This document shows positions 5,003-9,677 of a DNA stretch of 64,000 nucleotides, in pieces. Location: NCBI GenBank assembly GCA_945865885.1, contig CAMBEZ010000001.1, positions 62,001-126,000 of the forward strand, written 5' to 3'. The position numbers and the translations under genes were made by a program. Below the pieces are notes generated by a model. The model saw nothing but the letters and a program-made list of their open reading frames with translations, did not search any database and was not told the origin of the DNA. Each line of letters begins with the position of its first letter. The stretch's first letter is position 1. Source of the DNA: Owenweeksia hongkongensis DSM 17368 (GTDB taxonomy: Bacteria > Bacteroidota > Bacteroidia > Flavobacteriales > Schleiferiaceae).

Positions 5003-6043
5003 ATGAATCACCTCCTGATCCTCCGTTTTTCTGCACTTGGCGACGTTTCCATGACCGCAACCGTAGTTCGAGCGGCTTTGGAGCAGAATCCGGACCTTCG
5101 CATCACGTGGGTTACCCGGCCGTTGTTGGCTGAAAAAATTCCAGCACATCCGCGTCTTGTTTTTTGGACCACCGATTTCCGCGGCGTCCAGCAAACCCCA
5201 TGGGGGGTGTTGTCTTGGATTCGCCAGCAGATGCGAACTGCGGCGGCCGAAGGCCATCCCGTTGAGGCCGTTGCGGACTTGCACCGAAATCTCCGGACCC
5301 GAGTGGTGTGCGCCGGATTGGGTTGGCGTGGCCTGCCCGTGGAACGCCTCGTTAAGGACCGCATCGAGCGTCGGCAACTTCGCCTCAAAGGCGCGCTCCA
5401 CGCTGATGCCATCACCCCGGTAACCACCCGCATGGCAGAGGTGTTTCAGCGCCTCGGTTTGGCCCTGGAATGGACAGAAAAAACGGCCCAATCGGTTTTG
5501 CCCACACGGGTTGCCCCTGCGGCAAGTAGTGCCCCAAAACTGTATTTTGCTCCTACCGCGCGCCACAAAACCAAGCAATGGCCGTTGAATTACGCCCAAG
5601 AGCTCCTGGTTGCCTGGATGGAGCGCGGCGGAGAGGCCGTCTTGGCGGGTTCGGCAGCAGAACGTGAGGAATTGGAGCGCTGGATCAAGCCGGAATGGAG
5701 TCAACGTTGTACCGTCACCGCAGGAATGAACAACGAAGAAGAGGCTGCCGTGCGACGCACGTGCCACGTAGCCGTCACCTTGGACAGCGCCAACCTGCAC
5801 CTCGCAGTGCAATCCGGTCTTCCCGTAGTTTCCATTTGGGGCGGCACGCACCCCAAAGCAGGTTTTGTGGGCTTAGGACACCCCAATGTACACGTGCTTC
5901 AAGCACCCGACCCGGCCTTTCCCTGCCGCCCCTGCAGCATTTTTGGCAAGTCCACCTGCGCCTTGGGCGACGTCCCCTGCCTCCACGCGGTTGAAGTTAA
6001 GAGCGTGTTGGAGCGGGCTTGGGAAGTGGCTACCTCCGCGTAA
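5003..6043 (+). CDS. Glycosyltransferase family 9 (heptosyltransferase-like)
   Basis: The N-terminus LLILRFSALGDVSMTA and the C-terminal nucleotide-sugar block SIWGGTHPKAGF match GT9 enzymes (WaaC/WaaF/RfaF type), which transfer heptose or similar sugars to LPS inner core on the cytoplasmic face. Four C-terminal cysteines (FPCRPCSIFGKSTCALGDVPC) are common in Bacteroidota members. It follows the DUF4254 gene after 1 nt, so co-translation is likely. The acceptor sugar cannot be told from sequence. Confidence 0.87.
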   Translation: MNHLLILRFSALGDVSMTATVVRAALEQNPDLRITWVTRPLLAEKIPAHPRLVFWTTDFRGVQQTPWGVLSWIRQQMRTAAAEGHPVEAVADLHRNLRTRVVCAGLGWRGLPVERLVKDRIERRQLRLKGALHADAITPVTTRMAEVFQRLGLALEWTEKTAQSVLPTRVAPAASSAPKLYFAPTARHKTKQWPLNYAQELLVAWMERGGEAVLAGSAAEREELERWIKPEWSQRCTVTAGMNNEEEAAVRRTCHVAVTLDSANLHLAVQSGLPVVSIWGGTHPKAGFVGLGHPNVHVLQAPDPAFPCRPCSIFGKSTCALGDVPCLHAVEVKSVLERAWEVATSA

Positions 6044-6051
6044 TGCATTGA

Positions 6052-6513
6052 TTGTCAATTAAAAGCTTCCCATTCGGAACAATTCCGTCCCTTCGTCGTT
6101 CTTTTTTAGTGGAAGAACGCCGCTACCGATTGCGCCAAGGGCCTGAGATTGTTGGATTCCTCCGGGACATCCATGGATCGCTGTTTTATTCCCGCGATGG
6201 ATTTTGGTGGACCGGAATCCCCGTCCGCTACGAGCACGTGGACGAGTGGACCGGTTGGATGGACGTCCAACGCAAGCGCATTTACGAGTGGGATTTGGTG
6301 GAATACACTACCGCAGACAACAAAAAAGACTTGTTCGCAGTCCTTCGGAAGCAAAGCGATCATTTGTTTGGGTTGCGGAATATCAAAACCGATGACTTTT
6401 TCCCCTTCAGCATTCGTGGTGTGGAGCTTTTTGAAGCTTCCCGGTGCAAAGTAATCTCCCACGTTTTTATCAATCCCGAGCTCATGGAGGCCTGGGATTT
6501 GCGCGACGAATAA
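6052..6513 (+). CDS. YopX-family-like protein
   Basis: The protein is 153 aa from TTG 6052; a GTG at 6109 is an alternative start that would give 134 aa. The middle part (EWTGWMDVQRKRIYEWDLVEY) follows the YopX pattern, in which phage proteins have xxTGLxDxxGKxIYEGDIV, and the end (CKVISHVFINPEL) follows the closing motif of that family (VIGNIYENPEL). YopX proteins are typical of prophages and their function is unclear. Here the gene stands alone in a chromosomal setting and the usual Gly of IYEGD is Trp. The match was made by eye. Confidence 0.6.
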   Translation: MSIKSFPFGTIPSLRRSFLVEERRYRLRQGPEIVGFLRDIHGSLFYSRDGFWWTGIPVRYEHVDEWTGWMDVQRKRIYEWDLVEYTTADNKKDLFAVLRKQSDHLFGLRNIKTDDFFPFSIRGVELFEASRCKVISHVFINPELMEAWDLRDE

Positions 6514-6581
6514 GGGCTTTGGGCTAATCGACGGGATTCGCAAGTAATTATATACGCTTACTACCGACTGTCGGACGTGCA

Positions 6582-6610
6582 GGGTTGGAAATTGCCGAAA
6601 ATTTCAACCC
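6582..6610 (+). other. Hairpin abutting the start codon of the ComM-like gene
   Basis: The left arm GGGTTGGAAATT (6582-6593) pairs with AATTTCAACCC (6600-6610) with one bulged G. The right arm ends at the base just before ATG 6611. No T-run follows, so it is not an intrinsic terminator. It could affect translation initiation or stabilise the 5' end of the message. The rest of the 97-nt gap (6514-6581) shows nothing recognisable. Confidence 0.5.
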
Positions 6611-8053
6611 ATGCAACACGCACGTGTCTTCACGATTTCCTCAGGAGCCTGGCCTCGGCCGGTTGAATTGGACGCAACACATCGGCCCGGCATTCGCTGG
6701 GAACTGATCGGTTTTACCGAACGAATTGTTCGGGAGTCCCCGCAGCGTGTGCGCCATGCTTGGCGCAGTACCCGGCAACCGTGGCCTTCCGGCAAGTGGG
6801 TCATCAGTTTGTCACCGGCCGCACTGCCCAAGTCCGGTGCCGCGGTGGACCTCCCGCTCGCTTTGGCCATTCACTTGGCCCACCGAAGAAAAACCACCAA
6901 CCTCTGGGCCATGGGCGAGTTGCACTTCGACGGCCGGGTCCTTCCGGTGCCCGGGATTCCCGCGTTGGTTTCTGTGGCACTCGCTCAGGGAGCCGCTCGA
7001 ATTTTATTGCCCCTGGCCTCGCAGGCCGAAGTAGGCGACCACCCGAAAATTCGGTATGTGGGTACCCTGGAAGAAGCTTTTGCCCAGTTGGATTTCTGGG
7101 AGGACGCCGATGTGCCCGAGACCGTTCTCAAAAGGACTCGAGCGCTTGAACCGCGGAAACTCCCCAGTTCAGCCTTTACTATTTGGGACTCTTTCCAAGA
7201 GAACCCAAAATTGCAATGGGCAGCATTAGTTGCCGTCCACGGAGGACACCACGCGTTCTTTTGGGCGAACCCAAAGTTCCCTTGGCCCAACTGGGTTGCC
7301 GCCGTACAGCACCTCTATTTGGGCCGATTGGAGGCCGCTAAGGCGCCTGTACGAGATTGCCCAACGCGCTTGATCACCAGCATCATGCCGTCCTTGGGCA
7401 GCACCCCAGGGCTGATGGACCCTTTTACCAATGAGGTGACGCAAGCGAATGGTGGAATCTTGGCGATCGGTCGTTGGCTGGAACAAGACCCCCGAATAGA
7501 AGACCGTTTGGCCGCCGTCTTGGAGCGAGGAACCGCTTTGCTGGGCAGGGGGCAAGACCATTGGGCGGTCCCGGCGCGCTTTCAATTGGTCTTGGCAAGT
7601 GCCCCGTGTGCGTGCGGGCCAATTGTTTCGTGCATTTGCAGCAACCACCAACTGCGCGCTTGGAAACAAAAAATCCGCAAGCCTTTTTTGGAGCGGTTGG
7701 ATTTGGGATTGGACGAACAAAAATCGGGGGAATTTTCGGCCCTTTCTTGGCCACAAGCATTAGCTCAACTGGAACAGGGTGAAAAAATATGGACGCAGCG
7801 TTTCGTTCAGTCTTCGGAAGAGCGTTGGACCAACCGTCAGGTGCCCGTACATCGATTGTTGGAGTTGTTCCATGCGAACAAAGAAACGCTGGCTTGGTTT
7901 GAGAAAGAGCAGGCCACTGCCCGTTGGATGGGAAGTCGAATGGCACAAATTTTGCGTGTTGCCCGAAGTTTAGCAGATTTGCAAGGTATAGCCACTTTGG
8001 AGATCCAACACATGAAGCAAGCCGTTCAACTGAATACTGCCTTTACAACCTAA
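6611..8053 (+). CDS. ComM/YifB-like Mg-chelatase-related protein with degenerate ATPase site
   Basis: The whole 480-aa chain follows the ComM (YifB) fold: N-terminal domain (GIRWELIGFTERIVRESPQRV, LSPAALPKSGAAVDLPLA, MGELHFDGRVLPVPG), AAA+ core, the PCACG element at 332-336 (usually PCPCG) and the C-terminal RVARSLADLQG helix at 449-459. ComM is a hexameric branch-migration helicase used in natural transformation. Here the Walker A region after GGH (211-213) reads ANPKFPWP instead of GPPGSGKT, and Walker B reads GILAIGRW instead of GVLFLDEL. ATP binding and hydrolysis are therefore almost certainly lost, yet the frame is intact over its full length, which suggests selection for another role. 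Confidence 0.75.
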   Translation: MQHARVFTISSGAWPRPVELDATHRPGIRWELIGFTERIVRESPQRVRHAWRSTRQPWPSGKWVISLSPAALPKSGAAVDLPLALAIHLAHRRKTTNLWAMGELHFDGRVLPVPGIPALVSVALAQGAARILLPLASQAEVGDHPKIRYVGTLEEAFAQLDFWEDADVPETVLKRTRALEPRKLPSSAFTIWDSFQENPKLQWAALVAVHGGHHAFFWANPKFPWPNWVAAVQHLYLGRLEAAKAPVRDCPTRLITSIMPSLGSTPGLMDPFTNEVTQANGGILAIGRWLEQDPRIEDRLAAVLERGTALLGRGQDHWAVPARFQLVLASAPCACGPIVSCICSNHQLRAWKQKIRKPFLERLDLGLDEQKSGEFSALSWPQALAQLEQGEKIWTQRFVQSSEERWTNRQVPVHRLLELFHANKETLAWFEKEQATARWMGSRMAQILRVARSLADLQGIATLEIQHMKQAVQLNTAFTT

Positions 8054-8295
8054 CCACTCAATTGGCCGTGCGCGAGGCGGAAAAATCCGCGGAGCGGTTG
8101 TACGCACTGGAGACCCGCAAGTTTATTCTGGGCGAAAGTACCTTATTCATTGTCAATGCCCGGGAAGCCAAATACTTGTAGGCCGTGCAAAAACGCGCTA
8201 CCACCGAAGCCAAGTGGTTGGGGTTGGAGGCGGAACTCTACGCCCTTACTTCCAACGGCGATCCTTGGGATCGGGTGCGTTCTTCGTCCAGATAA
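8044..8295 (+). pseudogene. Remnant of a TolC-family outer membrane efflux protein (C-terminal end)
   Basis: In the frame starting at 8044 the translation reads YNLTTQLAVREAEKS, then RKFILGESTLFIVNAREAKYL, a TAG stop at 8179-8181, and after it AVQKRATTEAKWLGLEAELYAL up to TAA 8293-8295. RKFxLGESxxFxVNxRE is typical of the last coiled-coil segment of Bacteroidota TolC-like proteins. No upstream part of such a gene is present; the ComM-like gene occupies that place. The piece is read as a decayed gene end. It overlaps the 3' end of the minus-strand gene that ends at 8246. Confidence 0.55.
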
Positions 8296-8857
8296 GCGGA
8301 CCCTCGCAGCCGTCAAGGTCTACGATGACGGTGGTTTCCGTGCTGAAGTACTTTGCCATTTTGGCGCGCCACTCGCGGAATGCTTGGGCGTCGTACTGGG
8401 CGCAGGGCAGGGTGAGCAGTAGAATGGATTGGTCGTTGATGACGACGATTCCCGGAGGAGCTTCCGGAACGGATTTGGTGTCGCGGCCCGGCCGCACGGC
8501 AGTGGGTCCCAGAAAGGACTTAAGCCAGTTTTTAACGGCCCAGTCGCGATCTTCCACCGAGGCGTAGTGCACAGCAGTTAGGGTGACTGAAAATTTTACC
8601 TTGTTGCCCAGATTGTTGGCGCGCTTTGTTTTTTCCACCAATTCAACTTGCGACCATTGCGCGGCGTCGTCCAAGTTGAGGCCACCAAGGCGCAAGGTGC
8701 TTACGTTGAGTTCCTTGCGCTGAAAATTGCTGCCCAAATCCGCTGCAAAGGCGCTGCAGTTTTGGTTGAGTTCTTCCCAGGTTTGGCCGGATAATTGCAG
8801 GCTACCCACCACCAGTGCGCCCACCCATAAGGTGCGGCCTAAAATCATTCGAGTCAT
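8246..8857 (-). CDS. Hypothetical exported protein
   Basis: A protein of about 203 aa with a clear N-terminal signal peptide (LGRTLWVGALVVGSLQLSGQ) and no family I recognise. The mature part has three Cys and mixed alpha/beta-looking sequence; the fragment PPGIVVINDQSILLLTLPCAQYD looks like a folded core. ATG 8857 was preferred to the TTG at 8863 because it lies 3 nt behind a -7-like element; ATG 8848 is also possible. It is divergent from the DUF481 gene, with a 28-bp gap. Confidence 0.6.
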   Translation of the reverse strand: MTRMILGRTLWVGALVVGSLQLSGQTWEELNQNCSAFAADLGSNFQRKELNVSTLRLGGLNLDDAAQWSQVELVEKTKRANNLGNKVKFSVTLTAVHYASVEDRDWAVKNWLKSFLGPTAVRPGRDTKSVPEAPPGIVVINDQSILLLTLPCAQYDAQAFREWRAKMAKYFSTETTVIVDLDGCEGPLIWTKNAPDPKDRRWK

Positions 8858-8885: not shown

Positions 8886-9677
8886 ATGAACGGCAAAGAC
8901 AATGCCAGTTGGGCGCGTTGGGTGCTGTTGGGGTGGTTGTGCGTCAACGGCGTAACCGGCAACGCACAGATTGTGAATATTGAGTCCATGCGCGGTGCCA
9001 CCGGGGATTCGTCGGGCACCCACGGGGTACTGGACGGTCAATTTTACATTGGAGGCGCTCAGAACGTTTTGTTGCGGACCTACGGCGCCGCCAACGTGCG
9101 CAAGAGCGTGGGCAACGAAACGTACTACGGGATCGTCAGCGGCTCTTTCTCCACGCGGGTGGGTGGAGATCAATTGCTCTTTGAAAGCAATGCGTTTTTG
9201 CACGGTCGGTACAACTTGGAGCTGCAACCGCGCTTGACAGTGGAGGCCTTTTTTCAGTATCAGCGGGACAGACCCCTTCGAATTGCACAACGGTACAACG
9301 CCGGCTTTGGGACGCGGATCAAAACGGTACGGGCGAAGTCCTGGGAAGTTTACTGGAGCCCGTTGCTGATGGGCGAATTTGATTTGGAAGAAAAGACCGG
9401 CGTCCTCAACTACGCCTTACGCCTGAGTACCTACGTCAGTTCCGACGTTCGTTTGTCCGATAAATCCCGGTGGAACGCGGTGGTGTATTACCAGCCCGAC
9501 TTGTTTCGGTGGAATGATTTTCGGATGGTGTTCAACACCCGGTTGCAGACTACTTTGACGCGTCGGTTGCAGTGGGTAACCTCTGGCTTTGTCAACTACG
9601 ACGCCTATCCGGCTGATTTTGCAGGGGTTCCCGCGTTTACGTTTGGAACCACCACGGGCCTGAGCTACAAGTTTTGA
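8886..9677 (+). CDS. DUF481-like outer membrane beta-barrel protein
   Basis: A 263-aa protein with a signal peptide ending near VTGNAQ. The rest is made of alternating aromatic/polar strands (FEAFFQYQRD-like repeats, VYWSPLLMGEFDLEE, WNAVVYYQPDLF) ending in the aromatic LSYKF, as expected for an outer membrane barrel. The start QIVNIESMRG and overall pattern resemble Bacteroidota DUF481 proteins, whose function is unknown. The frame is open from 8727, but ATG 8886 starts the signal peptide and follows the promoter; the longer form would run through the divergent gene. Confidence 0.7.
   Translation: MNGKDNASWARWVLLGWLCVNGVTGNAQIVNIESMRGATGDSSGTHGVLDGQFYIGGAQNVLLRTYGAANVRKSVGNETYYGIVSGSFSTRVGGDQLLFESNAFLHGRYNLELQPRLTVEAFFQYQRDRPLRIAQRYNAGFGTRIKTVRAKSWEVYWSPLLMGEFDLEEKTGVLNYALRLSTYVSSDVRLSDKSRWNAVVYYQPDLFRWNDFRMVFNTRLQTTLTRRLQWVTSGFVNYDAYPADFAGVPAFTFGTTTGLSYKF

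Follow-up and report, generated by a model that had tools for sequence, protein, structure and literature searches.

A motor-dead ComM orthologue in the window

The window, the 64,000-nucleotide stretch of DNA analyzed here, encodes a real, complete and open ComM/YifB orthologue in which all catalytic positions checked are changed, confirming a motor-dead ComM. In Gram-negative bacteria, ComM is described as the motor that canonically drives branch migration during transformation. The reading we favor, and consider rather probable, is that this protein, the only ComM of its genome, is retained for transformation as a Lon-ring DNA factor that works without ATP, while RadA would provide the motor. 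If this is true, the structural or DNA-ring role of ComM is separable from its ATPase, and whether the Lon ring acts on its own becomes directly testable. Annotation by domain match (ChlI, Mg_chelatase) would wrongly label the window protein an ATPase.

The comM/yifB gene is defined by its open reading frame, Pfam, AlphaFold/PDB matches and synteny, and runs along the forward strand (6611–8053) from an ATG at 6611 to a TAA at 8051–8053, with 480 codons plus the stop and no internal stop, the uninterrupted frame that an earlier note on this DNA had described. Pfam places a ChlI domain at residues 29–135 and a Mg_chelatase_C domain at residues 400–474, while the Mg_chelatase domain itself is matched in its second half only (residues 269–368, profile positions 95–198). 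The Lon-like ChlI profile PF13541 scores 69.5 bits against a cut-off of 27 and the Mg_chelatase_C profile PF13335 scores 37.4 bits against 26; NCBIfam TIGR00368 reaches 110.2 bits, below its trusted cut-off of 362.4. The N-terminal Lon-like domain (6611–7070, forward strand) is retained according to Pfam, mapping on ComM and structure match, and so, according to Pfam and mapping, is the Mg_chelatase_C domain (7808–8032, forward strand), in which the arginine finger is replaced. ComM has a described zinc finger (PMC11612176), and the window protein keeps its four embedded cysteines (C333, C335, C341 and C343; 7607–7639, forward strand) in the alignments. This C4 zinc finger is absent from some other families of the same order. 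Alignments and Pfam bear out the other elements that the earlier note had listed as present, namely the Lon-like domain and the GGH (residues 211–213), PCACG (332–336) and RVARSLADLQG (449–459) motifs.

Catalytic residues were mapped onto Legionella pneumophila ComM (8RXD; PMC11612176). ANPKFPWP (residues 219–226; 7265–7288, forward strand) aligns to the GPPGxGK[ST] of Walker A, and GILAIGRW (residues 282–289; 7454–7477, forward strand) aligns to the GILFLDEW/L of Walker B, just as the earlier note had read these two positions. The glycines, lysine and threonine/serine of the P-loop are all absent, as is the Asp-Glu pair of Walker B, and neither a GxxxxGK[ST] Walker A nor a Walker B-like motif was found in the six frames of 6501–8200. 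The loss extends beyond the Walker motifs. Firstly, the sensor 1 asparagine is an alanine in the alignment (ATN/AMN to ASA; 7595–7603, forward strand). Secondly, sensor 3 Arg316 is replaced by alanine and the arginine finger Arg463 by serine (8RXD numbering). Finally, the RPFRAPHxS...GGG..PGE stretch is deleted together with the DNA-touching helix-2 insert, which leaves an F272/T273 junction in the alignments (7425–7428, forward strand). Arginine or lysine is kept at the Lon DNA-contact positions 43 and 64 of ComM, and R381 is kept as well. Judged from these replacements, it should be impossible for the window protein to bind or hydrolyze ATP in cis or to complete the active site of a neighbor in trans, a wider deficit than the loss of hydrolysis that the earlier note had predicted. 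Since the catalytic residues are lost, the protein would drive no ATP-dependent DNA translocation or branch migration.

The AlphaFold model of the window protein has a mean pLDDT of 79, and its best PDB matches are the solved ComM hexamers 8RXT and 8RXD (E ~1e-23). Foldseek aligns the model to the ComM Lon domain 8RXS with a TM score of 0.82 by target. The strand-loop-helix around the former P-loop is preserved and the C-terminal helices are modeled confidently, while pLDDT across the core blocks at residues 221–280 is 41–77, versus 72–92 in the control protein from the congener G001.

Selection on the retained protein

The closest comparison comes from G002, a sister species with ~90% DNA identity to the window genome (G000) over 5 kb, whose comM is represented by codons 1–70 at a contig end. 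Over these codons the two copies differ at 12 synonymous sites and one nonsynonymous site (dN/dS 0.024), and neutrality is rejected with P ~2e-6, or ~3e-6 if the G000 branch alone was neutral. With its open frame and this ratio, the gene looks retained rather than decaying, as the earlier note had supposed. Twelve neighboring genes give dN/dS values of 0.02–0.22 between the same genomes, and Walker-retaining ComM pairs give 0–0.08 over codons 1–70, a region that in most control pairs is more constrained than the whole gene. The remainder of the G002 gene was sought in the contigs of that genome and not found: contig C118 stops at codon 70, and contig C22 restarts past the comM stop, behind a tolC/hlyD pair; a truncated G002 copy is possible.

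The dS between G000 and G002 is 0.27, or ~0.14 per branch. Under neutral drift of ~0.14, all ten catalytic positions would have changed with a probability of ~5e-8 to 2e-5, and 7–13 stops would be left in the frame; neutral change of the ten positions needs a distance of ~0.6 per site, at which ~40 stops are expected. Because drift after the split is so improbable and would leave those 7–13 stops, loss of the motor most likely preceded the separation of G000 and G002, with the protein constrained since then, as judged over codons 1–70, the part known in G002. We infer that codons 71–480 are constrained as well.

Constraint also differs among domains. Taking the residues that intact ComMs of the family and order conserve, the window protein keeps 20% of those in the AAA core and G001 62% (p=9e-9), compared with 46% and 61% in the Lon domain (p=0.18); of these two domains, the difference is significant for the core only. 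From sensor 1 through the zinc finger the values are 36% and 50%, and in the C-terminal domain 29% and 34%. Since the other domains are spared, general decay is not the expected explanation of the core loss. The copy in G061, a member of the related genus g12, has a similar domain pattern when judged against its own genus.

Competence genes and gene neighborhood

The window genome comprises 1.8 Mb in 51 contigs and is 94% complete, and the window lies on a 209-kb contig. A PF01078 search of this 94% complete genome found no second Mg_chelatase-domain protein, the window protein being the sole match. The earlier note had suggested that the protein acts on a true ComM, as its structural partner or inhibitor, and had proposed a search for a second, intact comM; none was found, and the residues that act in trans are lost too, so this suggestion is not supported. 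Its other suggestion, a new function in DNA uptake or recombination, is possible and is the one we favor. RadA is encoded by a 475-aa frame (552 bits, versus ~587 in large-genome relatives), and the open reading frames of DprA (393 aa) and ComEC (602 aa) are intact.

Upstream of comM lies a syntenic glycosyltransferase family 9 gene (5003–6043, forward strand), and downstream lies a gene without a Pfam match (8249–8857, reverse strand) that adjoins comM also in g12 and g6 genomes. Further downstream follow a gene at 8886–9674 (forward strand) and a Mur ligase-like gene. The neighbors are shared on both sides with g12, on the upstream side with G001 and on the downstream side with genus g6; the window gene is therefore the positional orthologue of the ComM genes of its relatives.

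Two further features adjoin the gene. Just upstream, 6100–6510 (forward strand) carries a weak match to YopX, a phage-type family, with 86% identity to G002, and is the least constrained neighbor tested against that genome (dN/dS 0.22). Just downstream, 8062–8295 (forward strand) is a 3' tolC-like remnant of ~77 codons with an in-frame TAG at 8179–8181. Its DNA closely resembles the intact G002 tolC (L089:6479–7948, reverse strand), which is located behind an HlyD gene. The secretion genes appear to have been deleted in G000 immediately after comM, and the remnant shows that gene decay is ongoing at the comM locus.

ComM across the family and order

ComM was compared in draft assemblies of 88 genomes of the family (apparently Schleiferiaceae) and ~400 of the order. 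Large-genome family members carry a normal ComM scoring ~320 bits against PF01078, whereas in the small-genome genera g1, g6 and g12 the protein is absent or scores ~50–120 bits, and most of these low-scoring copies have a long open frame. The exception is G001, the g1 congener of the window genome, with 231 bits. All three genera carry strongly altered ComM cores. The earlier note had taken intact relatives together with frameshifts in this lineage as the mark of a decaying pseudogene; the motifs are indeed intact in G001 and most of the family, and the lineage shows no frameshift.

The g6 and g12 copies (G013, G071, G007 and others) resemble the window protein in their small genomes, shared neighbors, fast-evolving AAA core and shortened or remodeled Walker A–B interval. 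Unlike the window protein, they keep both Walker motifs, with GxPGxGK[ST] and the Walker B acidic pair, as well as the sensor 1 asparagine and the arginine finger. In g12 the RPFRAPHHS..GGG..PQPGEISLAH segment with the DNA-binding helix-2 insert is lost, and in g6 it is replaced. Copies of these genera with both Walkers kept (for example those at L042, L055, L035 and L046) have dN/dS values of 0.05–0.12, indicating purifying selection.

Among the aligned family copies, both Walker motifs are lost only in the window protein and in G061. The latter has likewise lost Walker A (GHPDQDKV), Walker B (FVNQ), sensor 3 and the arginine finger within an open frame and with the zinc cysteines kept; unlike the window protein, it retains the sensor 1 asparagine and the P-loop lysine, and the replacement residues differ at each site. 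The tree treats the Walker loss as two independent changes, one in G000 and one in G061, a placement that is unsafe because these are the longest branches (4.27 changes per column for the window protein, against a median of 0.44) and because G000 falls apart from its congener G001. With this long-branch caveat, the tree requires two losses, and the G061 copy would have arisen independently of the window copy. A scan of GTDB contigs with the window protein alone returned no relatives, and one with a G000 plus G001 profile returned 49 ComMs, all 49 with an in-frame Walker A match and thus no further Walker-less copy.

Of the ~400 order genomes, the majority score either normally for ComM or not at all, and a few reach half-scores; apart from G305, intermediate scores of the window kind occur only in g1, g6 and g12. 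RadA shows no comparable change wherever it is complete. A profile search found no hidden ComMs in the genomes scored as ComM-less. Related genera have dispensed with ComM altogether on several occasions; G082, G089 and G102 did so while keeping ComEC and DprA, and some g6 genomes likewise have ComEC and DprA without ComM. Across family genomes at least 85% complete, the presence of ComM tracks that of ComEC (Fisher p=9e-6) and DprA (p=2e-4), uncorrected for phylogeny. Five g12 genomes (G059, G063, G076, G077 and G078) lack ComM, DprA and ComEC, which suggests that one subgroup has lost its entire competence system.

Proposed function and alternative explanations

The window protein resembles ComM/YifB (L. 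pneumophila 8RXD; TIGR00368) in its order of Lon-like, zinc finger-bearing AAA+ and Mg_chelatase_C domains, in its predicted fold and in a gene neighborhood conserved with relatives, and differs in lacking all tested cis and trans ATPase residues and the helix-2 insert. The hexameric planar Lon scaffold is common to ComM and RadA, and in ComM it is present even when no DNA is bound; the Lon domain of ComM touches DNA (PMC11612176). Under the mechanism we propose, ComM would have lost its ATPase core while the ring-forming and DNA-contacting Lon-like domain, the zinc finger and the C-terminal domain stayed. Rings of such a ‘pseudo-ComM’ could tether or scaffold incoming or recombining DNA without ATP in natural transformation, while branch migration itself would be driven by intact RadA, possibly with their assistance. 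RadA/Sms has the same Lon-like hexameric scaffold (PMC11612176), belongs to the same pathway and is intact in G000; unlike the window protein, it has another ATPase domain and domain order. A transposon mutant of ComM/YifB in the flavobacterium Riemerella shows ~400-fold lower transformation (PMC8459023), and this defect, together with the co-occurrence of ComM with ComEC and DprA, places the gene in transformation. According to Nero 2018, as cited in PMC11612176, a normal ComM with a disrupted Walker A no longer binds DNA, and the same could be true of a motor-dead ComM.

AAA+ folds without a working ATPase site also occur in Mg-chelatase D (BchD/ChlD) and the clamp-loader delta subunit. Both act beside active paralogues, and no active ComM paralogue was found in G000. 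In a broader version of our proposal, streamlined flavobacteria would have turned ComM on two or more occasions into a ‘pseudo-ComM’ that needs no ATP, serving as a Lon-ring DNA clamp or an accessory of RadA in a transformation pathway with its canonical motor replaced; this version is tentative and on present evidence doubtful.

The main rival to a retained DNA factor is slow decay: ComM is lost in relatives that keep ComEC and DprA and is therefore dispensable there, and in this streamlined lineage the motor could have died with the frame not yet broken. The repeated losses in related genera, the very long window branch and the adjacent tolC remnant with its stop codon all fit such decay. 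The 12:1 ratio of synonymous to nonsynonymous differences over codons 1–70 does not, nor do the tens of stops that neutral change of the catalytic set would leave, the concentration of loss in the AAA core or the clustering of intermediates in g1, g6 and g12 within an order of mostly normal or absent ComMs. We consider decay unlikely, though a serious contender. Less probable still is that the N-terminal Lon-like domain alone is functional and the remainder a tolerated tail. Direct selection was measured in codons 1–70 only, where most control pairs are more constrained than over the whole gene; a mere tail, however, sits poorly with 330 further codons free of truncation, the kept zinc cysteines, a C-terminal domain at about the G001 level and its confident helices in the AlphaFold model.

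An assembly or sequencing error, such as paired compensating indels, is very improbable. With a cheap frameshift penalty, alignment favors a shifted frame over ~7257–7318, but the gain is not significant, being equaled by 6–15% of random controls and 33% of synonymous recodings; no frame holds a Walker A motif, Walker B, sensor 1 and sensor 3 are lost in frame, and the gene lies on a 209-kb contig. Compensating frameshifts around the P-loop were accordingly rejected against shuffled, resampled and synonymous controls. Most remote is an ATP-driven ComM with a non-canonical nucleotide site, which the predicted overall fold and intact strand-loop-helix would allow but which would have to work without the P-loop lysine, Gly-Gly and Ser/Thr, the Asp/Glu, the sensor asparagine and the arginine finger, in a core modeled less confidently than in G001.

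Interrupted comM genes elsewhere in the order

One half-scoring genome of another family, G036, has a comM split by a ~15-kb element (L037, 1833–17777) that encodes a Mu/TniA-like transposase, TniB, TniQ and a resolvase, with cargo including an AAA ATPase and a subtilase. This gene content suggests a Tn7-like transposon inserted in comM, and recalls Acinetobacter, where comM is the target of AbaR elements. In G038, comM (L036, 1895–3452) is read as two overlapping frames of 223 and 314 aa and is apparently frameshifted.
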